Origin: Coriobacteriales bacterium
Lineage (GTDB): Bacteria > Actinomycetota > Coriobacteriia > Coriobacteriales > UBA8131
DNA: 46,082 nucleotides
Direction: 5' to 3'
Assembly (NCBI GenBank): GCA_031256715.1
Contig: JAIRQA010000077.1
Coordinates: forward strand, 1-46,082
Position numbers and translations under genes: made by a program. The notes beneath the pieces were generated by a model. It was not told the origin of the DNA, did not search any database, and saw nothing but the letters and a program-made list of their open reading frames with translations. How positions within the stretch are numbered: position 1 is the first letter of the stretch; every line of letters begins with the position of its first letter. Shown here in pieces: positions 2,008-39,757 of the stretch.

Positions 2008-3666
2008 TTATGGAAGCTCTTGATAATTTTCTTCTAAAAGATCAAGCAAGCTTTGGCGCTTATGAATGCCTAGCTTGCCGTAGATACGTTTAGAGTGTGT
2101 GCGCACTGTGTTTTCTGAGACAACTAAGACTTCAGCAATTCGAGCTACAGAGTTTCCTCTGGCAATATGTTCCATTACTTCAGCCTCGCGAGCACTAAGT
2201 AGGTATTGTCGCTTAATGACAGCGCAGCGCTTAGACAAACGATCGCGATAATTTGCGTTATTGCCATGTGCCAAGGCGGGAGATACATCTATGTTAGCAC
2301 CTGCATGCACCTCATGTTTTGTTGACACACTTACGTCAGCATCGGCATCGGCATCAAAGACATCTGCGTGCAGCTCATGATTTGCTACCATGCCAACACC
2401 AGGTTTTAAGGTGTCTACATGAGAATGCCTAAGGAACTCGACGCGTGATGGCTGACTTGCCAAAAGCGAATAGACATCGCGAACAGAACCTCGAACTGCA
2501 AACATCGACATTCCTAAAAGCCAAACAGCTCCCAATGCGATTATAACTATTTGACTATAGCCAAACATATCCATAAAACCAGAGTACGTGCCCATAATAA
2601 AACCGATGCTCTGAAATAAATAAACGATCGTGCCAAAGAAGCCAAAGATAAAAACAGGGTTTATGCCAATGTCGCGCGAGGCTTGCGCACACTGCAACAT
2701 CATAATGGTTAACGCGAAAGAGAACACCATGTATAGCGCCGCAGCAAAAACATCCAAAAAGTAAACTCCCAAAAATGGTAACAGTAAGAAGCTGGTGACA
2801 ATAAAGGGAAAGATTAGTCTAAAAGCGCTGATGACATCAAGGTGAAAGCTAGTTTTTCTCCACAAAATTAATAAGACTATCGCAGATGTTAATGCGCCAA
2901 ACATAGACATAGTGTTTATGATAATGCCTACAGATGGCTCTGTAAGAGCAACCGCCCGAATAATCCCCGAGACAAACCCAAGGCACCCCACACAAATGGC
3001 GCTAGGCCAATATCCCTTAATGGTATTAAAGTATACGTGACGATTTTGGCTGGGAATATCTTCAAACATTGGCTGAGCAAAGTCTATTTCGCGTGTCGAA
3101 AGCACAATGCAAAGACCGCAAAGTGGCACCAAGATTAGAGGGATGACAAAAGAAGTGACGGCAATTGGCACTAGGCATAGAAGAAAATAGATTATCGCCG
3201 AAAGTCCCGTGCCCACAATAATGAACAATGTTCCCTGCTTTGGATCTTTAGAAGCGAAAAAGCGCTGCAGCAAGACAAAGTAGCCGGCACATCCCGCACC
3301 CAAAAGCAATGCGCCAACACATATTAGAACCATGGTCAGGTGTGGAATATATAACGTTGCAATAAGGCAGGAGCATCCCAAAAAAATGGGCACTCCATTA
3401 AAAAAGGCAAGTATTCTTTGGCTTAAGCTAGGCCGCAGGTAGGCTCCAAGGGAGTTTGTAAGCATCGTGCCCCAAAAAGCAATAGATTGCAAGAGGTAAA
3501 AAGTTATCATCACATCTGATGTTTGCATCTGCATTGGCAAAAATGGAAAGGCGCCTCCCCACAACAATGTGGCATTAATGGCCAAAAGAACTGCAAGTCC
3601 CAACATAGAAACATGAAAATTTCTAAATATGCTAATAAAGATACTTGCTAGCATGCTATAACCCAA
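2008..3666 (-). CDS. LuxR-type regulator with N-terminal multi-pass membrane domain
   Basis: Protein of 552 residues. Residues 1 to about 400 hold roughly twelve hydrophobic segments arranged like a transporter; the C-terminal 63 residues (490-552) are a complete LuxR helix-turn-helix (LSAREAEVMEHIARGNS, then ENTVRTHSKRIYGKLGIHKR). No receiver domain is present, so the membrane part is presumably the sensor. The linker (about 430-475) is low-complexity with an Asp-Ala run (DADADAD). The start overlaps the end of the second DmsC gene by 11 bases, so it is the last gene of the reductase operon and most likely regulates it. Such 12TM-LuxR proteins are a hallmark of Eggerthellaceae and often sit beside molybdopterin reductases; the ligand is unknown. 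Confidence 0.9.
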   Translation of the reverse strand: MGYSMLASIFISIFRNFHVSMLGLAVLLAINATLLWGGAFPFLPMQMQTSDVMITFYLLQSIAFWGTMLTNSLGAYLRPSLSQRILAFFNGVPIFLGCSCLIATLYIPHLTMVLICVGALLLGAGCAGYFVLLQRFFASKDPKQGTLFIIVGTGLSAIIYFLLCLVPIAVTSFVIPLILVPLCGLCIVLSTREIDFAQPMFEDIPSQNRHVYFNTIKGYWPSAICVGCLGFVSGIIRAVALTEPSVGIIINTMSMFGALTSAIVLLILWRKTSFHLDVISAFRLIFPFIVTSFLLLPFLGVYFLDVFAAALYMVFSFALTIMMLQCAQASRDIGINPVFIFGFFGTIVYLFQSIGFIMGTYSGFMDMFGYSQIVIIALGAVWLLGMSMFAVRGSVRDVYSLLASQPSRVEFLRHSHVDTLKPGVGMVANHELHADVFDADADADVSVSTKHEVHAGANIDVSPALAHGNNANYRDRLSKRCAVIKRQYLLSAREAEVMEHIARGNSVARIAEVLVVSENTVRTHSKRIYGKLGIHKRQSLLDLLEENYQELP

Positions 3667-18217: not shown

Positions 18218-19474
18218 TCACTTCGAGTACCTTGCCCCTTGCCATTCATGTAATGCCGCAAAAAACGCGTCATTCTCTTCTGTTTTACCTATAGTCAAGC
18301 GCAAACAGTTCTTAAGTCCCTTGGATGAGCTTAAGTCGCGCAGCAATATAGCCCGTGTAGAATGCAACCACTGCCAAAACTCGTGCGCGCCTGACATGCG
18401 TAACAAAACGAAATTGGCATCAGAGCGATAATACTCTATATTTTTTAATGTTGAGAATAGCGTCAGTACTCGCTGGCGTTCAGTAATTATCTTGCTGCTA
18501 GTTTTGGCTACCTGCTCTTTAAATTCTAAGGCAGCACAACCAGTGGCAGCCGCAAAACGACTGACAGAATATGGTTGTCTGACCTTTGCTAAATTACGAA
18601 TTACCTCAGCCGATGCTAAAAGATAGCCTAAACGCACCCCTGCTAATCCCCACGCCTTAGAAAAAGTTCGCAGCAAGACAAGATTCTCATTGTGCAAAAT
18701 GCTTTGCATACTTAAGCTGGTGTCGGCAAAGTCTATGTAAGCTTCGTCGATAAGGACAATAGCATCGCTAGCTGTACAAAGCCTGTTTACAAACTGGGCA
18801 GAAAGCAAATCACCTGTTGGGTTGTTAGGTGAGGCTAACATTACGATATCTATATCACCGCATGCAACACGGGCAAGGATGCCTTCCTCATCAACATCAT
18901 AGCAACGCAGGTTTTTAACAGCGTCACTTTGCCCGATTGCGACACCTTGCTCGGCTGTGGCACTTTCCTCGGTTGCGGAATTTTGCTCGGTTGCATCGCC
19001 TTGCTTGGTTGCGCAATTTTGCTCGGTTGCATCGCCTTGCTTGGCGACGACCAATTCCTTCTCAACATAAATTTTATCTATTCGTGGCACCTGCACAACT
19101 TCTGTACCATTTAAAGCAGCACTAAGTTCATAAGAACTAAAACAAGGCGGCGCTATAAGTAATTTGCGACCATTTCCGCCCCAAGCAAGTATCAGATCTA
19201 AGATTAGCTCGTCGCCGCCATTACCAACAAGAACTTGTTCGGGGTTAACACCATGATAACTTGCCAGCAGCTCTCTTAGCTTTAAGCAGAGCGGATCGGG
19301 ATAGCGGTGCAAAGATAAATCTATGCTTTGCGCTTGCAGCATTTTTGCTAATGCCTCATAAAGTCCTTGCGGCGCACCATAGTTATTCTCGTTAGCATTA
19401 AGATATATTTGCGCCGGTAGATACTTTGGGTCGTAAGGCTCAAGATTGGCTATTTGTTTACTTGTGGGTCGCAA
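18218..19474 (-). CDS. hisC: Histidinol-phosphate aminotransferase with repeat insertion
   Basis: PLP-dependent aminotransferase of the histidine pathway. Core motifs: YLNANENNYG, LVGNGGDELILDLI, LASPNNPTGDLL, VLIDEAYIDF, LRTFSKAWGLAGVRLGYLLA with the PLP lysine, and the late CLRLTIG. Length 418, some 50 above normal, because residues about 143-186 hold an insert with two 12-residue repeats (KQGDATEQN[CS]AT) and degenerate copies, coded by 36-base repeats. The insert falls in a surface loop between active-site strands and leaves all motifs intact, so the enzyme may still work. The start is TTG (19474), with gaaagg upstream. Confidence 0.94.
   Translation of the reverse strand: MRPTSKQIANLEPYDPKYLPAQIYLNANENNYGAPQGLYEALAKMLQAQSIDLSLHRYPDPLCLKLRELLASYHGVNPEQVLVGNGGDELILDLILAWGGNGRKLLIAPPCFSSYELSAALNGTEVVQVPRIDKIYVEKELVVAKQGDATEQNCATKQGDATEQNSATEESATAEQGVAIGQSDAVKNLRCYDVDEEGILARVACGDIDIVMLASPNNPTGDLLSAQFVNRLCTASDAIVLIDEAYIDFADTSLSMQSILHNENLVLLRTFSKAWGLAGVRLGYLLASAEVIRNLAKVRQPYSVSRFAAATGCAALEFKEQVAKTSSKIITERQRVLTLFSTLKNIEYYRSDANFVLLRMSGAHEFWQWLHSTRAILLRDLSSSKGLKNCLRLTIGKTEENDAFFAALHEWQGARYSK
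18915..19048 (-). repeat. In-frame 36-base tandem repeats inside hisC
   Basis: A 30-base identical segment occurs at 18979-19008 and again at 19015-19044, period 36, followed by shorter degenerate copies towards 18915. It encodes (KQGDATEQN-C/S-AT) twice and then EESATAEQGVAIGQSDA. The period is a multiple of three, so copy-number change would keep the frame. Confidence 0.85.
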
Positions 19475-21391: not shown

Positions 21392-23149
21392 TTAAGGCCT
21401 CGTCACGATATCCGCGAGCTTAACAGCCAATTCACGTACTCTAGAATCAATACGTACTGCCGTCGTGTTACCTACAAAACGTGCAGTAGATGCCAATACT
21501 TCATCTACAACTACCAGGTTATTTTCAGACAATGTGGTGCCTGTGGCGGTGATGTCTACGATGCGCTCGGCCATGCCACACAATGGAGCAAGCTCGATAT
21601 TGCCATGCATCTTAACAATCTCTACCTGCGTTCCAGTGCTATCATAATAGCTTGCTGTAATGCGTGGATACTTTGTTGCCACTCGCATTAACCCAAGTCT
21701 ACTATACTTCTGAGCAACTACACCACTTGCTTCTCGCGGCTCGGCAACAACAAAACGACAAGCACCAAAACGCAGATCCACCAGCTCCATTAGCTCCAAA
21801 TCCGCTTCCGCTAAGGAGTCACGACCACATATAGCGCAGTCTACCCCGCCATAGGAAACAAAAACTGGCACATCTGTTGGCCGAACAATATAGTAATGCG
21901 TATCTTCATTGCGCACAACCAATTGACGACCTGGGTTATCTAACCCATTCGTATCTAGACCAGCTGCCGCAAGCAAGGCCACACTTTCCTTATACAAGGC
22001 ACCTTTAGGAACCGCAATCTTTAGTGGTGCTAGTTTTTTTTCTGCCGTTTTCACAAATTTTGTTGCTTGATTGGCAATGTCTGCATTTGTTCTACTCTCA
22101 CTTGCTTGCACCATAGCTTGCATCACGTTTTCTAACGAGAATGCAAAACCGGCAGCCGGAGCATTAACGCCAAAGGTTCCAAGTAGCCTATCGTAACGCC
22201 CACCACTGCCTAATGGCACTCCAACTCCTGGAGCGTACGCTTCTATAACCAACGAGGTATAATAATCAAACGTACTCATCACCGAGAAGTCAACTTTAAG
22301 CTTACCTTTGGTGCCCTGTGCCTGCACGATGTCCCATGTATAGCGCAAATCCTCTAAAACATTAGCACCAATAATAGGCGCAATCAGTTCTTCGCAGGCA
22401 TCTATAGCATCCTTGCCGCCACAAATTGTGGGAAGAGTATTAAGCGCCATCTTGTAAAGCGAGACGTCTGGCGTATTGTTATCTGAAATATTGTTATCTG
22501 AAATATTGTTATCTGAAACCATTTCTGCAGCGAGTTTGCTTAAAGCAACAAAATCAGATTTATGATATGACGCTAGCACACTATTAATCCATTTTTCGTC
22601 TTTATTGCAATCTTTCGCAATGTGGCGCGTCAGACATTCTAAAACTTGAACAGTACAAATAGCAATCGTAAAATCAGATAAGCCACTGGCAGCTAAAGAC
22701 TCATCAAAAAGCAAAATAAGCTCAGCATCAGCTTTAGCCCCACTATGTCCAAGCGACTCTATACCTATCTGAGTATACTCGCGTGCTTGAGCTTTTAGCT
22801 GCTCCTCTTCGCGAAAGACACGCTGCACGTAACGTAATCGCAAAGGCAGAGAATCAGCCCCCATGCGTGTCGCTACCATGCGAGCAATAGGCAATGTGAC
22901 ATCTGGTCGCAAAGCAAGCAACTCATTGTCGGTGTCAAAAAGACGAAATGGCATATGCGCCAGCTTTCCGCCTCTCTCCATAACTTGCAATACCTCTAGC
23001 GTTGGCGTTTCTATGGGCAGATAGTTTCGCGCAGAAAGGCAGCTTTGCACAGCAGCAATTATTTGTTCGCGCCAAAGCGCCTCCTTGGGCAAGATATCCT
23101 TAAAACCGCGTGCCTTTACCGGCAGTGTTTGTTCATTATCTTCTTGCAT
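21392..23149 (-). CDS. hisZG: Fused ATP phosphoribosyltransferase: HisZ regulatory domain plus HisG catalytic domain
   Basis: First committed step of histidine synthesis: ATP and PRPP condense to phosphoribosyl-ATP. Residues 1 to about 345 are HisZ, the histidyl-tRNA-synthetase-like regulator (FKDILPKEALWRE, LRPDVTLPIARMVATRMG, YVQRVFREEE, GSGGRYDRLLGTFG). After a linker of about 25 residues comes a short-form HisG (about 373-585: LKIAVPKGALYKESVALL, VDCAICGRDSLAEADL, CGMAERIVDITATG). These are normally two subunits of a hetero-octamer; here they are one frame with no internal stop. HisZ has an insert (ISDNNISDNNISDNN) coded by 15-base repeats. I take ATG at 23149 with ggaagg upstream; the frame is open to an ATG at 23170 without a ribosome site. 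Confidence 0.93.
   Translation of the reverse strand: MQEDNEQTLPVKARGFKDILPKEALWREQIIAAVQSCLSARNYLPIETPTLEVLQVMERGGKLAHMPFRLFDTDNELLALRPDVTLPIARMVATRMGADSLPLRLRYVQRVFREEEQLKAQAREYTQIGIESLGHSGAKADAELILLFDESLAASGLSDFTIAICTVQVLECLTRHIAKDCNKDEKWINSVLASYHKSDFVALSKLAAEMVSDNNISDNNISDNNTPDVSLYKMALNTLPTICGGKDAIDACEELIAPIIGANVLEDLRYTWDIVQAQGTKGKLKVDFSVMSTFDYYTSLVIEAYAPGVGVPLGSGGRYDRLLGTFGVNAPAAGFAFSLENVMQAMVQASESRTNADIANQATKFVKTAEKKLAPLKIAVPKGALYKESVALLAAAGLDTNGLDNPGRQLVVRNEDTHYYIVRPTDVPVFVSYGGVDCAICGRDSLAEADLELMELVDLRFGACRFVVAEPREASGVVAQKYSRLGLMRVATKYPRITASYYDSTGTQVEIVKMHGNIELAPLCGMAERIVDITATGTTLSENNLVVVDEVLASTARFVGNTTAVRIDSRVRELAVKLADIVTRP
22478..22522 (-). repeat. 15-base tandem repeats inside hisZG
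   Basis: Three copies of attgttatctgaaat-type 15-base units encode SDNNI-SDNNI-SDNNT in the HisZ domain. The repeat keeps the frame and lies in a surface region between the conserved motifs. Confidence 0.85.
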
Positions 23150-23675
23150 ACCTAATATGACCTTCCGCATCGTTGTTTAACTCTGGATAAATGTATAAGC
23201 ATTGGGCTCAATTCTCACTATATCACAATATAGCACTATAGTGAGAAGGAAACCGCCGCAAGTCTCAGATGGTCTGTAAGTTGTTGGCTTGCAGCCAGTG
23301 AACGGTTAAAGTCGCGGCTATTAATTGTAGATGAGATTAGAGTTTGCAGTGTGCGCTGTTTTTTTTGTGGTACACACCAATCCTGCCTAAGATTCAGTTT
23401 AAGCATATCAAGATTATTGCAACAACCAGCCTCACATTTGCTTTTGCAGTCACAAAAAAATTTCCGCTAGCGCGAGCAGCGCGAGCAGCGCGAGCAAAAG
23501 GAAAGGGAAGCAACAACTTGCTCTACATGATGCCTAAACGGCCGCCTATTGATTGGCGCTTATCTGGGCAAGTACAGTTGCTTCCCTGCTATGTATATTT
23601 ATACTCCTAAAGTATAGATGATGTCAAGTAACAGTTTTTTTGTCGCTTATGATGCGCCTATGATGCTTATGTATC
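23150..23675. promoter_or_regulatory. Regulatory region of the his operon, with operator-like repeat and a long hairpin
   Basis: No credible gene in 526 bases. An 11-base perfect inverted repeat, TTCTCACTATA / TATAGTGAGAA, spans 23212-23247, some 60-100 bases before hisZG, well placed as an operator; the right arm also holds the palindrome CACTATAGTG. Three copies of the 9-mer gcgcgagca stand at about 23470-23496. Arms GGGAAGCAAC (23505-23514) and GTTGCTTCCC (23577-23586), continued inwards by CTTGC/GCAAG, form a long stem. A small palindrome TATACT-cctaa-AGTATA lies at 23600-23616. No T-box or His-rich leader peptide was found. Confidence 0.55.
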
Positions 23676-24635
23676 TTATGAAATTGGCACTCCTCCTCTA
23701 GTAATCAAATCAACGTTTCCCTCATACTTAGCATTTCGTACGTAGACTTTGCAGATATTTTTTTCCAGCGCTTCTGTAGCTCCCTTCCAAGTTCCGCTTT
23801 TTGAGCCTTTTGCAGACTTTACAACCACCGCATACTCCGACATCGCATAGATATATTTATTTCTATTCGTAAAATGCGCCATAGCTTCATATTTAGAAAG
23901 TCTGCGTAAAGGATTTACTTCAGAAAAGAGTAGCATATTCTGATCTTGCACTGCATCAATCACCTCTAAGCTATCCAATGAGATTTTCATGTTCTTTGAA
24001 AACTCTATTACAGGCATGCTAAGCTGTAGAGCCGCGTACTCTGAGATTTGGTCGATGCCCTCTGCACCACCGGAAACTATTCCAATAACGTCCTTTTCGT
24101 TTTTCGCTTTACCATATATACGTTTTATAGCGCTTTCAGTCCAATCCTTATCTGAGTCATCTATGTTCCTCGCCCCAACAAATCCCACAAAGTTAATTTT
24201 CTGAATCCCCAAATCTCCACAAAAATAAAGCAATGCTGGCTCCCGCATAGATTTTGGCAATTTGCCAAGTCTGCATTTTAGTTTCTGCGGATATCCATCA
24301 TCAAAAACAGTTACAACTTTAGCAATGCTTTTTAGGCGCTCAATTTCAAATGAAATAGCAGCAGAGCGCTTTAACAAAGCCATTATCCTATTGCTTAACT
24401 CACTCTTTATTCCCAGCTTGTCTTCTAAAAATCGCAAGTCAATTTCTGTAAGAAACGCAAAATTAAAACTATCGTCTGACTGAAATAGATTTAATTGTTC
24501 CGATTCGGCACCATTGTATAATTTGATTGCTTCAAGTAATGTATGAAATTCCGCGTTAGAGAGCGGCTTTAAATCAGAACTGGTAGAACTGAAATCCATG
24601 CATAATGCTAATGTGACACTAGATTTGCTATTCAT
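23676..24635 (-). CDS. DprA/Smf-like (SLOG-fold) protein, putative defence component
   Basis: 319 residues. The central part is a DprA-type Rossmann domain: INFVGFVGARNIDDSDKDW, then GIVSGGAEGIDQISEYAAL, matching the VGxRxxs and SGxAxGID signatures. A later stretch (YAVVVKSAKGSKSGTWKGA) corresponds to the nucleotide-pocket region of DprA. The N-terminal 100 residues are divergent and helix-rich, with no winged helix at the C-terminus. It overlaps the upstream phosphoribosyltransferase gene by eight bases (ATGAATAG), so they form one translation unit. Housekeeping DprA loads RecA in transformation; a DprA-like gene coupled to a phosphoribosyltransferase points instead to the antiphage pair I recall as Rst_DprA-PPRT. 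Confidence 0.82.
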   Translation of the reverse strand: MNSKSSVTLALCMDFSSTSSDLKPLSNAEFHTLLEAIKLYNGAESEQLNLFQSDDSFNFAFLTEIDLRFLEDKLGIKSELSNRIMALLKRSAAISFEIERLKSIAKVVTVFDDGYPQKLKCRLGKLPKSMREPALLYFCGDLGIQKINFVGFVGARNIDDSDKDWTESAIKRIYGKAKNEKDVIGIVSGGAEGIDQISEYAALQLSMPVIEFSKNMKISLDSLEVIDAVQDQNMLLFSEVNPLRRLSKYEAMAHFTNRNKYIYAMSEYAVVVKSAKGSKSGTWKGATEALEKNICKVYVRNAKYEGNVDLITRGGVPIS

Positions 24636-25062
24636 TTACGTCTCCCTCACTTGAATCTGCAAGGCAGAACGGAATCACCACAGGACACCCAATTTCTCCA
24701 AGCAAATTTGCACAAACAGCAAGTGTCCATCTTGAATCTACGATATCATCAACCAGAATTGCGCTATACGCAAACTTAATATCGGATGGTATAGAAAAAG
24801 ACTGCATTGCGTTTTGACACTGATGTGATGAATTCGCCATCATTTTTTGCGGCGGCGCATCTGTTTTCACGATTACATCAACAAACTCAAGTTTTAGCAT
24901 CTTCGCAAGCTTCTCTGCAAAAACTTTAACTTTTGTGTTGTTAAGCGATGGAACATATGTCAAAATTCTTACATTGTCGTCTTGCACAAACTCTTTTATT
25001 GCCTTGGCAGACACGGCAAGAAGCTCATCGCGAAAATCGTCGGCGAAGTTTTGCCCAAACAT
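24628..25062 (-). CDS. Phosphoribosyltransferase-fold protein, partner of the DprA-like protein
   Basis: About 144 residues with the type I phosphoribosyltransferase signature: the PRPP loop reads YSAILVDDIVDSRWTLAVCA, preceded by a conserved strand (VRILTYVPSLNNTK) and a flexible region. It resembles ComF-type PRTases but lacks the ComF zinc-finger. The ATG at 25062 lies inside the murJ 3' end (38-base overlap); a TTG at 25068 and a GTG at 25014, just past the murJ stop, are alternatives, and none has a strong ribosome site. It is translationally coupled to the DprA-like gene. Whether it makes, breaks or senses a nucleotide is unknown. Confidence 0.8.
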   Translation of the reverse strand: MFGQNFADDFRDELLAVSAKAIKEFVQDDNVRILTYVPSLNNTKVKVFAEKLAKMLKLEFVDVIVKTDAPPQKMMANSSHQCQNAMQSFSIPSDIKFAYSAILVDDIVDSRWTLAVCANLLGEIGCPVVIPFCLADSSEGDVNE

Positions 25063-26683
25063 CTTCAACTAATGCCAGCTCTGGCACCCGCATTAACCTG
25101 CAAAGGGCAAAGATTAACAGTAGAGCTAAGCTGCCATAAAGCACTGTAGCAACAAAACCTGCTAACATGCCATCTCCTATAGGCAAAAAAATGTAAGCAG
25201 CTGCAGCAAACAGCGAGCCCACAACTGTAGCCAGCAATACCCTTAAAGCACTGCCTATAACAGCAGTGGTCCCAATCTGACCCATGATGCGTTGCAAAAC
25301 AAAAAGCAGCACAGTGGTTGCCAGTGCGTAGTAAACAATGTCGGCAACCGGAATGCCGCTTAAACCAAAGAGACCATCTTGTGTTAAAACGACATAAAGA
25401 GCACATTGTAAGACGCATAAGGCGGTGCATATTATTGAGAAAAGCGTAAATCGACGAATACTAGAATAGACACTAAAGAAAAATTGCTGCAAAGAGTAAA
25501 ATGGCAAGGCAAAAACCCACATTTGCAAAGTTACACCAACATAGGCGACATCGTCTGATGTGAAAGCACCAGAGTGAAACATTTGCATGAGCGGTGCCGC
25601 TAAAGCAAACATTAAACCTGCAAGCGGAATGACAATGAAGAGTGTTCCCGATAGGCCATTTTTAAGAAGTCGCTTAAAGTCTAATAGATTGCCTTGTGCA
25701 AACGACGAGCTCATCTCTGTAAATAGGGCACGCGAAAGCGATGCTGCCAAGATACCATGTGGCAGCTGGAACCATGTCCACGCATAGATGAGCGTAGATG
25801 GACCATCGTCGCCTGTAGAGAGCGCAAAAGCATTGCGAAAAGTGAATGAAACCATGGTACCAATTACATAGATAAGCATTGGAATCCCTGTTTTTATTGT
25901 CTCTAAAAAAACAGGGTCACGAACATCTATGCGCGGTGTGTATTTAAATCCCAACCGTAAAATTGCGGGTATCTGTATGGCAAACTGAGCAGCAACGCCC
26001 AAGGTGGTGCCCACAGCCAAAACAATGATTGCCAATTCAGGATTTCCAGGCTCTATAAGCCAATAGGCAAAAAGCGATGCAATGACCAAAAGATTGTTAA
26101 ACAATGGTGCTAGCGCTGTAATAAAAAACACTCGGTTGGCATTTAAGATACTGGTGAAAATCCCCCCAAGACCATAAAACAACATTTGAATAGCAAAAAT
26201 TCTAAAGAATATAATAGCATAATAGTTTACTGCGGCACCGTCGCCTAACGTAAAGGTTTGGGTGGCTATAAGCTGTGGCGCAAAGATAGTTGCAAGTACA
26301 GAAAGTCCACCCAATACAATTACAACAATGTTTAAAAGATTAGATGCAAACTTGTCGCCCGCCTCTTTACCTTTCTCCTGCATCTGCTTAATGTACAATG
26401 GCACAAAGGCAGCAGCCAACAATCCTCCAGCCACCAACTCAAAAATGATGGTTGGCAGATTATTTGCCACCTGATAGCTGGATGTGACCAAAGCGTTGCC
26501 CAAGGCAAAAGCCATTGCCGCGGTGCGGACCAAGCCTGTTGCACGCGAAGTCATGGTTGCCACAGCCATTAAAGCCGTCGATCTTGCAATCGAAGGTTGC
26601 TCTGAGACTAAATTGCGCTGTTCATCACCTGTAAGACAATCATCTTTAAGATGCTTAGGCTGATATACGTCGGTTTTCTTCAC
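25025..26683 (-). CDS. murJ: Lipid II flippase MurJ (MviN family)
   Basis: 552 residues with about 14 hydrophobic segments. Flips lipid II across the membrane for peptidoglycan synthesis. Family features: MTSRATGLVRTAAMAFALGN near the N-terminus, then VANNLPTIIFELVAGGLLAA, and LPHGILAASLSRALFTEMS in the middle. Its 3' end is overlapped by the phosphoribosyltransferase gene. No divergent gene shares its upstream until cysE on the other strand, 233 bases away. Confidence 0.95.
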   Translation of the reverse strand: MKKTDVYQPKHLKDDCLTGDEQRNLVSEQPSIARSTALMAVATMTSRATGLVRTAAMAFALGNALVTSSYQVANNLPTIIFELVAGGLLAAAFVPLYIKQMQEKGKEAGDKFASNLLNIVVIVLGGLSVLATIFAPQLIATQTFTLGDGAAVNYYAIIFFRIFAIQMLFYGLGGIFTSILNANRVFFITALAPLFNNLLVIASLFAYWLIEPGNPELAIIVLAVGTTLGVAAQFAIQIPAILRLGFKYTPRIDVRDPVFLETIKTGIPMLIYVIGTMVSFTFRNAFALSTGDDGPSTLIYAWTWFQLPHGILAASLSRALFTEMSSSFAQGNLLDFKRLLKNGLSGTLFIVIPLAGLMFALAAPLMQMFHSGAFTSDDVAYVGVTLQMWVFALPFYSLQQFFFSVYSSIRRFTLFSIICTALCVLQCALYVVLTQDGLFGLSGIPVADIVYYALATTVLLFVLQRIMGQIGTTAVIGSALRVLLATVVGSLFAAAAYIFLPIGDGMLAGFVATVLYGSLALLLIFALCRLMRVPELALVEDVWAKLRRRFSR

Positions 26684-37846: not shown

Positions 37847-39757
37847 TTAGAAATCACCAAGAAAAGCTCCGGATTGACGACTCCACAACCTTGCGTACTC
37901 GCCACCTGCATCTACTAATTCAGCGTGCGTACCATCCTCTACAATAGCACCATCACTTAAAACGATGATTCTATCTAAACTCGCGACAGTAGATAAACGG
38001 TGCGCCACAACGATAGAGGTTCTGCCTTGCATCAAATTAACAAGCGCATCCTGAATGTATTTTTCACTCTGGGAATCTAAGGCAGATGTTGCCTCATCTA
38101 AAACTAAAATCGGACGATTAGCAAGTATTGCACGAGCAATAGCAACTCGTTGACGCTGTCCTCCAGAAAGTTTTACCCCACGCTCGCCCGTTATGGTATT
38201 AAAACCTTGCGGCAGAGCCTCTATAAATTCCAGAGCATTTGCACGCTTTGCGGCATCACTAATCGCAGACATCGATGCACCCGGACAACCATAGGCGATG
38301 TTTTCGGCAACAGAACGATGAAAAAGCAATGGTTCCTGTGGCACATAGGCAATTCTTTGGCGCAAACTTACTTGTGTAACATTGGCGATATCCTGACCAT
38401 CTATAAGAATGCTTCCTTGCGAAAGATCGCTTAGCCTTAATAGCAAGGTTGTTAGCGTAGTTTTACCAGAGCCAGAGCGCCCAACTAAACCAACACGTTG
38501 TCCACCAGGAATATTCAAGTTAAAATCGCGAAAGACAGAGGTTTTGTTTTCGCTGGTTTTGTTTTCGATGGTTTTGTTGGCGTTGGTATTGTTGCCGCTG
38601 GTATTATTCTCATAAGTTTTCTTGCCGTAGATATTTTTGTTAAGAGTTTTCTGTTCGTGGGTTTTTTTCTCAACATCATCATTGTAAGAAAAGCTTACAT
38701 TGCAAAAGCTGATATCACCGCTCTTAACAGCTAGCATGCTAGCATTTTCTTTGTCCGCTACCAGAGTTGGTTCATCTAAGATTAGAGTCATTTCGTGGGC
38801 ATCACCAAAACCGCGATTTATCTGCTGAAATGTCATATTGATACGATTAAATTGCATCGTTAGCGCGTGAGTGTAGGTAAAAACCATCACCAGTGTACCC
38901 GCACTGATGCCAAACCAAGCATTGCCGCCGGTAATAAAAAGCACAACCAAAGCCATAATACAAACGATGATAAAGCTGGTAATGGCACCGCGCATCGTTG
39001 ATGCCCGCATGCGCTTTGAGTCTGCTTTAAAGACGGCATCATTGGCATCGCCAAAAACATTTCGCTCGAATGCCTCTCGCCCATAAGTTTTTACGGCTAA
39101 GATGTTTGTTATACTATCAGAAAGCTCTCCGGATAATGTGTTTTGCGCAGCCGCAGCGCCTGAGTTTAGAGGCAAAACGCGCTTGTACAAGTAATAGGCA
39201 ACGGCCACATAAACAACAAGCATGACAAACAAAATGAGCACATACAGCGGTAAAGACGGTGCTAAAATTACCAATGTAAAAACAGCAGTCATAACAATAG
39301 GAATTACAGCATAAATCAGACACTCTAATAGCACTGCATATGCCGAGATAAACTTCTGAGTCTGCGAGACAAGAGAGCCGCCAAAGCGGTTTGAATGAAA
39401 AGTCATAGACTGGTTAGAAAGCGTTGCAAAGGCGGTGGTGGCAAGCTCGTAGTTCACCTTAATCTCTAGCTTCCAAACAGCGTAATCCTGAAGCTTGCTA
39501 GAGATTTGTCCCAAAGCCTCCAAAACGATGAATACCAAAATGTAAGGCCCGAAGACACGTAATACATCATCCGGAGCCACTGAGTTTGTGCTAACAACAT
39601 CTATAACTATAGCTAACACATAAGGAATCGCAAAAGTGAGAAAAAAGACAAAGCCTAATGTCGAGACTAGAGCCAAAAGAAACATCGGCCAGCTACCGGC
39701 AGTGGCACGTACATACCAATGCAAAGTGCGCAGTGGAACAGAAGTGCCTTTAGTCAA
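37847..39757 (-). CDS. ABC exporter (fused membrane and ATPase domains) with pentapeptide-repeat insert
   Basis: 636 residues: six membrane helices (about 20-310) then an ATPase domain with Walker A GRSGSGKTTLTTLL, Q loop YVPQEPLLF, signature LSGGQRQRVAIARAI, Walker B ILVLDEATSALD and the switch His in VVAHRLS. Homodimeric or half exporter of drugs, lipids or peptides; substrate unknown. Between the first ATPase strand and Walker A (about 358-408) it carries a Lys/Asn/Thr insert with six units near xxNKT (GKKTYENNTSGNNTNANKT and on), coded by 15-base repeats. Two bases downstream of the coiled-coil envelope gene. Confidence 0.93.
   Translation of the reverse strand: MTKGTSVPLRTLHWYVRATAGSWPMFLLALVSTLGFVFFLTFAIPYVLAIVIDVVSTNSVAPDDVLRVFGPYILVFIVLEALGQISSKLQDYAVWKLEIKVNYELATTAFATLSNQSMTFHSNRFGGSLVSQTQKFISAYAVLLECLIYAVIPIVMTAVFTLVILAPSLPLYVLILFVMLVVYVAVAYYLYKRVLPLNSGAAAAQNTLSGELSDSITNILAVKTYGREAFERNVFGDANDAVFKADSKRMRASTMRGAITSFIIVCIMALVVLFITGGNAWFGISAGTLVMVFTYTHALTMQFNRINMTFQQINRGFGDAHEMTLILDEPTLVADKENASMLAVKSGDISFCNVSFSYNDDVEKKTHEQKTLNKNIYGKKTYENNTSGNNTNANKTIENKTSENKTSVFRDFNLNIPGGQRVGLVGRSGSGKTTLTTLLLRLSDLSQGSILIDGQDIANVTQVSLRQRIAYVPQEPLLFHRSVAENIAYGCPGASMSAISDAAKRANALEFIEALPQGFNTITGERGVKLSGGQRQRVAIARAILANRPILVLDEATSALDSQSEKYIQDALVNLMQGRTSIVVAHRLSTVASLDRIIVLSDGAIVEDGTHAELVDAGGEYARLWSRQSGAFLGDF
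38530..38675 (-). repeat. 15-base tandem repeats inside the ABC exporter gene
   Basis: At least six units similar to gttttgttttcgctg encode pentapeptides YENNT, SGNNT, NANKT, IENKT, SENKT and relatives. In-frame, and in an exposed loop of the ATPase domain. Confidence 0.8.

Follow-up and report, generated by a model that had tools for sequence, protein, structure and literature searches.

A helicase-less PsyrTA/RqlHI-type gene pair at the 3' end of murJ in a Coriobacteriales genome, probably a disarmed toxin with its retained antitoxin

In the window, which denotes the whole stretch of 46,082 nucleotides of a Coriobacteriales bacterium analysed here (contig JAIRQA010000077.1), the ORF listing comprises two minus-strand genes, a DprA-like ORF of 319 codons and a phosphoribosyltransferase (PRT) ORF of 146 codons, which overlap by 8 bases and are flanked by murJ on one side and by his genes on the other (Table 1). 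Based on profile and tree comparisons, the pair is assigned to the PsyrTA/RqlHI type and not to the Rst_DprA-PPRT/ShosTA type, and the PRT ORF turns out to encode no whole phosphoribosyltransferase, but the domain that forms the C terminus of RecQ-PRT proteins. The pair is probably best explained as a disarmed toxin with a retained antitoxin, a reading that is favoured over a working minimal system and over an assembly error. Active defence by the pair is improbable. The initial annotation had described the two overlapping ORFs with the motifs SGGAEGID, VGARN and LVDDIVDS, all of which are present in the sequence.

Table 1. Positions of the gene pair, its motifs and its upstream neighbour in the window.
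Feature	Position	Strand	Description
DprA-like gene	23676..24635	-	PsyrA/RqlI-type antitoxin, short form without C-terminal winged-helix domain; PADLOC PsyrA 1e-53 compared to ShosA 1.1e-16; inside PsyrA clade (100/100)
PRT ORF	24628..25062 (ATG) or to 25068 (TTG)	-	helicase-less C-terminal PRT domain of PsyrT/RqlH-type toxin; PADLOC PsyrT positions 552-688 of 689, 9.1e-35
PRT ORF codons 1-11	25036..25068	-	murJ 3' end in another frame, not PsyrT; from PsyrT alignment (starting at residue 12) and frame translation
Junction	25025..25035	-	final 11 bases of murJ including TGA, shared with first PsyrT-homologous codons (F-R-D)
PRPP-binding loop LVDDIVDSRWT	24724..24756	-	all near-invariant residues kept, compared with 37 other PRT domains
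QLNLF, DprA residues 47-51	24483..24497	-	beta-clamp-binding-like motif; exact QLxLF match in N-terminal insertion
GAGGGAG, Shine-Dalgarno-like	24642..24648	-	6 bases upstream of DprA ATG; from sequence
Terminator-like stem-loop with T-run	23464..23481	-	downstream of DprA; consensus scan
murJ	25025..26683	-	intact upstream neighbour; Pfam MurJ 1.2e-65; C terminus complete

The affiliation of both proteins was determined with the PADLOC models, where the window DprA reached 181 bits for PsyrA compared to 59 bits for ShosA, and the window PRT reached 118 bits for PsyrT compared to 17 bits for ShosT. The ShosT and ShosA models represent ShosTA/Rst_DprA-PPRT in this comparison, and the far better PsyrTA scores of both proteins rule out the Rst_DprA-PPRT membership that had been proposed initially; for the nucleotide signal suggested along with it, no support was found. 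Pfam assigned the window DprA to DNA_processg_A (PF02481, 1.3e-24) and the PRT ORF to Pribosyltran with 4.5e-05 and 23.3 bits, which is under the gathering score of 26.3. A small C-terminal profile of DpdF, from the Dpd DNA-modification system, also matched the window PRT, with 70 bits and thus below PsyrT, and no other Dpd genes were seen adjoining the pair.

In a maximum likelihood tree, the window DprA grouped with 17 PsyrA/RqlI proteins and was split from 29 housekeeping DprAs with a support of 100/100. Its branch length of 3.26, compared to mostly 0.3 to 1.2 within the clade, is as relaxed constraint would give, although an unusual composition may also have produced it as an artefact of the model. 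The nucleotide-binding motifs of DprA are retained, and the AlphaFold model of the protein showed a pLDDT of 36. Proteobacterial and cyanobacterial antitoxins of PsyrTA carry a C-terminal winged helix, which is missing in the window antitoxin, and no remnant of it was detected downstream by tblastn; the actinobacterial PsyrAs are likewise short and comprise no such domain.

Compared to PsyrTA, the window pair shows the same toxin-then-antitoxin order with tight, overlapping coupling, a DprA from the PsyrA/RqlI clade and a PsyrT-type PRT with its PRPP loop, and both PsyrTA models are the best matches. What is absent is the RecQ helicase fused to the PRT, corresponding to about 550 of 689 positions. 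The same holds true for the comparison with RqlHI of E. coli: the window PRT is 42% identical to the PRT of RqlH from strain EcN, whereas RqlH is a full RecQ-PRT protein. With ShosTA and the DprA-PRTase of P2-like phages (Rst_DprA-PPRT), the pair shares a free PRT beside a DprA-like protein, yet the free-standing ORF of 146 aa was produced by truncation, and the pair lies between murJ and the his genes instead of at a satellite hotspot or in a prophage. Among plasmids, both window proteins have their nearest relatives in the same adjacent pairs, where a RecQ-family helicase with a C-terminal PRT is followed by a DprA. These were found in a BREX island of Acinetobacter, a type I restriction island of E. 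coli, a plasmid of Nostoc and a megaplasmid of Sinorhizobium, the last with an antitoxin gene that lacks an annotated CDS and is distributed over different frames.

The homology of the PRT ORF to PsyrT is restricted to the final 137 positions of the PADLOC model. Aligned with four RecQ-PRT proteins, the ORF is 37-42% identical to their tails, with the alignment starting at residue 12 (F-R-D-E-L-L). The first PsyrT-homologous bases coincide with the last 11 bases of murJ, its stop codon (25025-25027) included. Since the homology starts within these 11 bases, the PRT ORF begins at a truncation junction. The initial observation of a first gene starting inside murJ therefore holds for the ORF, but not for a whole PRT gene, as the first 11 codons are murJ in another frame. 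The C terminus of murJ itself (RRRFSR, followed by the stop codon) resembles the KRRLSR (likewise followed by the stop codon) and KRLFSR of relatives; murJ is thus undamaged, and its truncation by an insertion is ruled out.

Neither ORF of the pair contains internal stops or frameshifts. The window PRT retains every residue that is shared by 36 or more of the 37 related PRT domains, and its AlphaFold model showed a PRT fold with a pLDDT of 72 and PurF as the nearest PDB match. Since both the conserved residues and the modelled fold are retained, the domain would probably be foldable and able to bind DprA. The terminator-like hairpin 3' of the DprA-like gene is a weak candidate, since the consensus scan found 6 terminator-like sites compared to 3.5 expected.

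Among 32 other genomes of the same family, the PRT was found in none, and the same holds true for a PsyrA-like DprA, with a single weak match of 1.3e-4. The murJ-his neighbourhood is lineage-specific, since murJ in the family relatives is not followed by his genes. The G+C content of the pair is 0.38-0.41, compared to 0.44-0.50 for the neighbours analysed. Together, the absence of the pair from all 32 genomes and its lower G+C support the earlier view of an inserted pair, which belongs to a toxin-antitoxin/defence family and was acquired here. An insertion-element signature was not detected at the edges of the pair, neither as flanking direct repeats nor as repeated DNA or a tRNA gene. The window DprA gave no match in phage records or viral contigs, no evidence for a prophage or plasmid setting was found, and the flanking murJ and his genes agree with the chromosomal, non-prophage location described initially. 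Further along the same strand, HisZ-like and HisG-like parts are seemingly joined in one ORF of 592 codons (21392-23170). Insertions of low complexity that resemble repeats, such as NNISDNNISDNN, ATEQNCATKQGDATEQN and NKTIENKTSENKTS, were observed in this ORF as well as in the minus-strand ORFs at 18218-19474 and 37847-39757; apart from these insertions, the encoded enzymes and ABC transporter are conserved.

The helicase part of psyrT was not found elsewhere in the source genome, a draft of 145 contigs and 78% completeness; the other PsyrT-profile matches in this genome were a divergent helicase and RecJ-like, UvrB-like and ComF-like proteins. A PRT profile search of the phylum gave matches in 82 of 397 genomes. 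At 1e-13 or better, the window frame of 146 aa was the only stand-alone PRT, the remaining matches being frames of at least 659 aa and one frame of 375 aa, where RecQ and PRT lie in two overlapping frames due to a frameshift (G585). Weaker matches of about 240-330 aa lie in the size and score range of ComF; the check covered one similar match from the class search. Every strong relative that could be followed carries the PRT at the C terminus of a RecQ helicase.

The search of 400 genomes of the class revealed as other PsyrT-type matches one long fused gene (L075) and two decayed genes, namely a lone psyrT fragment (L076, genome G266) and a psyrT whose PRT region has lost an internal segment (L077, genome G249), so that decay of psyrT recurs in the class. 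At L075 (about 2235-2759, plus strand; genome G198, same order as the source genome), the position behind the long RecQ-PRT gene is taken not by a PsyrA but by a different SLOG-like ORF, which is possibly an alternative antitoxin and ends in TVQATLDLG before the stop codon, resembling the clamp-binding hexapeptide. In E. coli, 5 of 30 evenly sampled matches cover the DprA part only, with one of these five inspected; toxin loss with retention of the antitoxin may therefore be common. A parallel to the window pair is the chromosome of E. coli strain CEC13091 (L125:1698-5024), which has an intact rqlI next to an rqlH annotated as a pseudogene with a frameshift.

The known properties of RqlHI allow an explanation of the window pair. 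In E. coli, Russell and Mulvey (2015) found the PRT domain of RqlH to be required, but not sufficient alone, for genotoxicity, while its deletion abolished the interaction with RqlI (PMC4670107). RqlI 1-320, which comprises no C-terminal helix-turn-helix, still restrains RqlH, and in a Shigella sonnei strain an insertion element separates the PRT part from the helicase (PMC4670107). The full PsyrTA/RqlHI system consists of a RecQ helicase bearing a C-terminal PRT, whose genotoxicity depends on its delivery to DNA by the helicase, and a downstream DprA-like protein that binds and restrains the PRT domain. In the window, an event where murJ ends would have left only the last approximately 135 toxin codons, starting out of frame in murJ, with the intact short-form antitoxin gene behind them. 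Since the isolated PRT domain of RqlH was found to be non-toxic (PMC4670107), the window PRT without its helicase is probably non-toxic as well, and the toxin would be disarmed. The persistence of the antitoxin could be explained by a recent loss, or by an antitoxin that is still useful, e.g. against PsyrT-type toxins arriving on plasmids. The intact frames, the kept PRT residues and the DprA motifs speak against a mere relic; a neutral relic should erode, and therefore the event was either recent or the pair is still in use.

A less likely alternative is a working minimal two-gene system evolved from PsyrTA. In such a system the free PRT would act as the effector, with the DprA-like protein both restraining it and serving as sensor, in the manner of ShosTA or the DprA-PRT system of P2-like phages, and co-transcription with murJ would provide expression. 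The parts retained in the window are exactly the two known interacting parts of RqlHI, the PRT domain and the DprA-like protein (PMC4670107), the reading frames and the active site are intact, and a good Shine-Dalgarno sequence precedes the DprA-like gene. Furthermore, pairs of free PRT and DprA protect elsewhere against T7 and lambda, as described for the DprA-PRTase of P2-like phages (PMC9122126). However, the window holds the single such case among the sampled genomes, the PRT start inside murJ shows no clear ribosome-binding site, and the non-toxicity of the isolated RqlH PRT points in the other direction. Phage defence is also only partly established for the PsyrTA/RqlHI family, and the native PsyrTA of one E. 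coli isolate, when deleted and expressed, gave no detectable protection (PMC12409345).

It is improbable that the contig wrongly joins murJ to the interior of psyrT and that the organism comprises a full psyrTA operon. The abrupt join, the 11 shared bases which could mislead an assembler, and the fragmented draft would allow for such an error, whereas the stop codon of murJ is retained, other genomes also contain truncated psyrT and rqlH genes, and the helicase part is missing from the remaining assembly, albeit at the completeness given above. A domesticated housekeeping or competence-type DprA/ComF pair, which would have only the fold families in common with the window pair, is ruled out for practical purposes by the tree, by the profile scores, by the separate DprA (contig C55) and ComF-like (contig C110) genes of the source genome and by the lack of conservation across the family. 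Neither outcome named in the initial annotation as speaking against it, homologues at this site in all relatives or grouping with competence DprA/ComF, was observed.

Besides the disarmed toxin, the comparison of the antitoxins revealed a recurring motif at their C termini. A clamp-like motif (QLxLF or QLxLxL) lies within the last 13 residues of 11 of 15 PsyrA-type proteins, the window excluded, compared to 0 of 29 housekeeping DprA tails (Fisher p = 2e-7), figures that overstate independence, as the regular expression was written after the tails had been seen and the proteins are related. As background, the mean for shuffled tails was 0.8 of 16, and the motif occurs in about 1% of the tails of other ORFs. 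The hexapeptide form QLxLxL of the clamp-binding motif was reportedly described by Dalrymple and colleagues in 2001. The bacterial sliding-clamp-binding motif has the consensus QLxLF and is usually C-terminal (PMC4549789). Examples of PsyrA tails, each ending at the stop codon, are QLSLL (Nostoc), QSSLFE, QLRMIF, QLPMDL, QLTIELS, QMTIELG, QLRLGV, QLALDI, QINLFDLL, QPSLFGTIG and QEKLF. Among the four proteins without the motif, the PsyrAs from the E. coli plasmid and from Acinetobacter comprise none at the end, L093 shows a shortened form (EQLTL), and KRLFE forms the end of the frameshifted protein from Sinorhizobium. In a Firmicutes draft genome (L004:627-1592), a PsyrA-like protein with a sigma-factor-like ORF upstream, instead of a RecQ-PRT, was observed as an orphan antitoxin with the clamp-like tail EQINLFDLL.

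E. coli RqlI carries a QxxLF motif in its linker, and AQPELF is common to RqlI and the E. coli plasmid PsyrA in this otherwise variable region. By our numbering, the Q of AQPELF is the last residue of the RqlI 1-320 truncation; since this truncation is still an active antitoxin, the motif would serve location or sensing and not neutralisation. The window DprA shows no clamp-like tail, but QLNLF in an insertion that is absent from most relatives; the chance of a QLxLF anywhere in the shuffled protein is P = 0.0035. Tentatively, and with considerable doubt, PsyrA/RqlI antitoxins could be regarded as sliding-clamp clients, and the window pair as a helicase-free version with a relocated motif. QLxLF or QLxLxL, usually in the last residues and sometimes in the linker, would dock the antitoxin, and hence the PRT toxin, on the replisome, and a phage or DNA damage disturbing the replisome could release the toxin. 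In the window, QLNLF in the N-terminal loop would replace the helicase as the route to DNA. In the literature searched, which covered few subscription journals, no papers on clamp binding by PsyrA/RqlI antitoxins were found, and the signal is apparently unreported.

Altogether, the window pair shows that the RecQ helicase can be lost while a PRT domain and the DprA-like protein paired with it persist, which illustrates the modularity of a little-understood toxin-antitoxin family. The pair may represent an intermediate on the way from PsyrTA to ShosTA-like pairs, or disarmament caught at one moment. Furthermore, the clamp-like motif offers a directly testable idea of how the DprA-like antitoxins of PsyrTA, RqlHI and ShosTA might sense replication.
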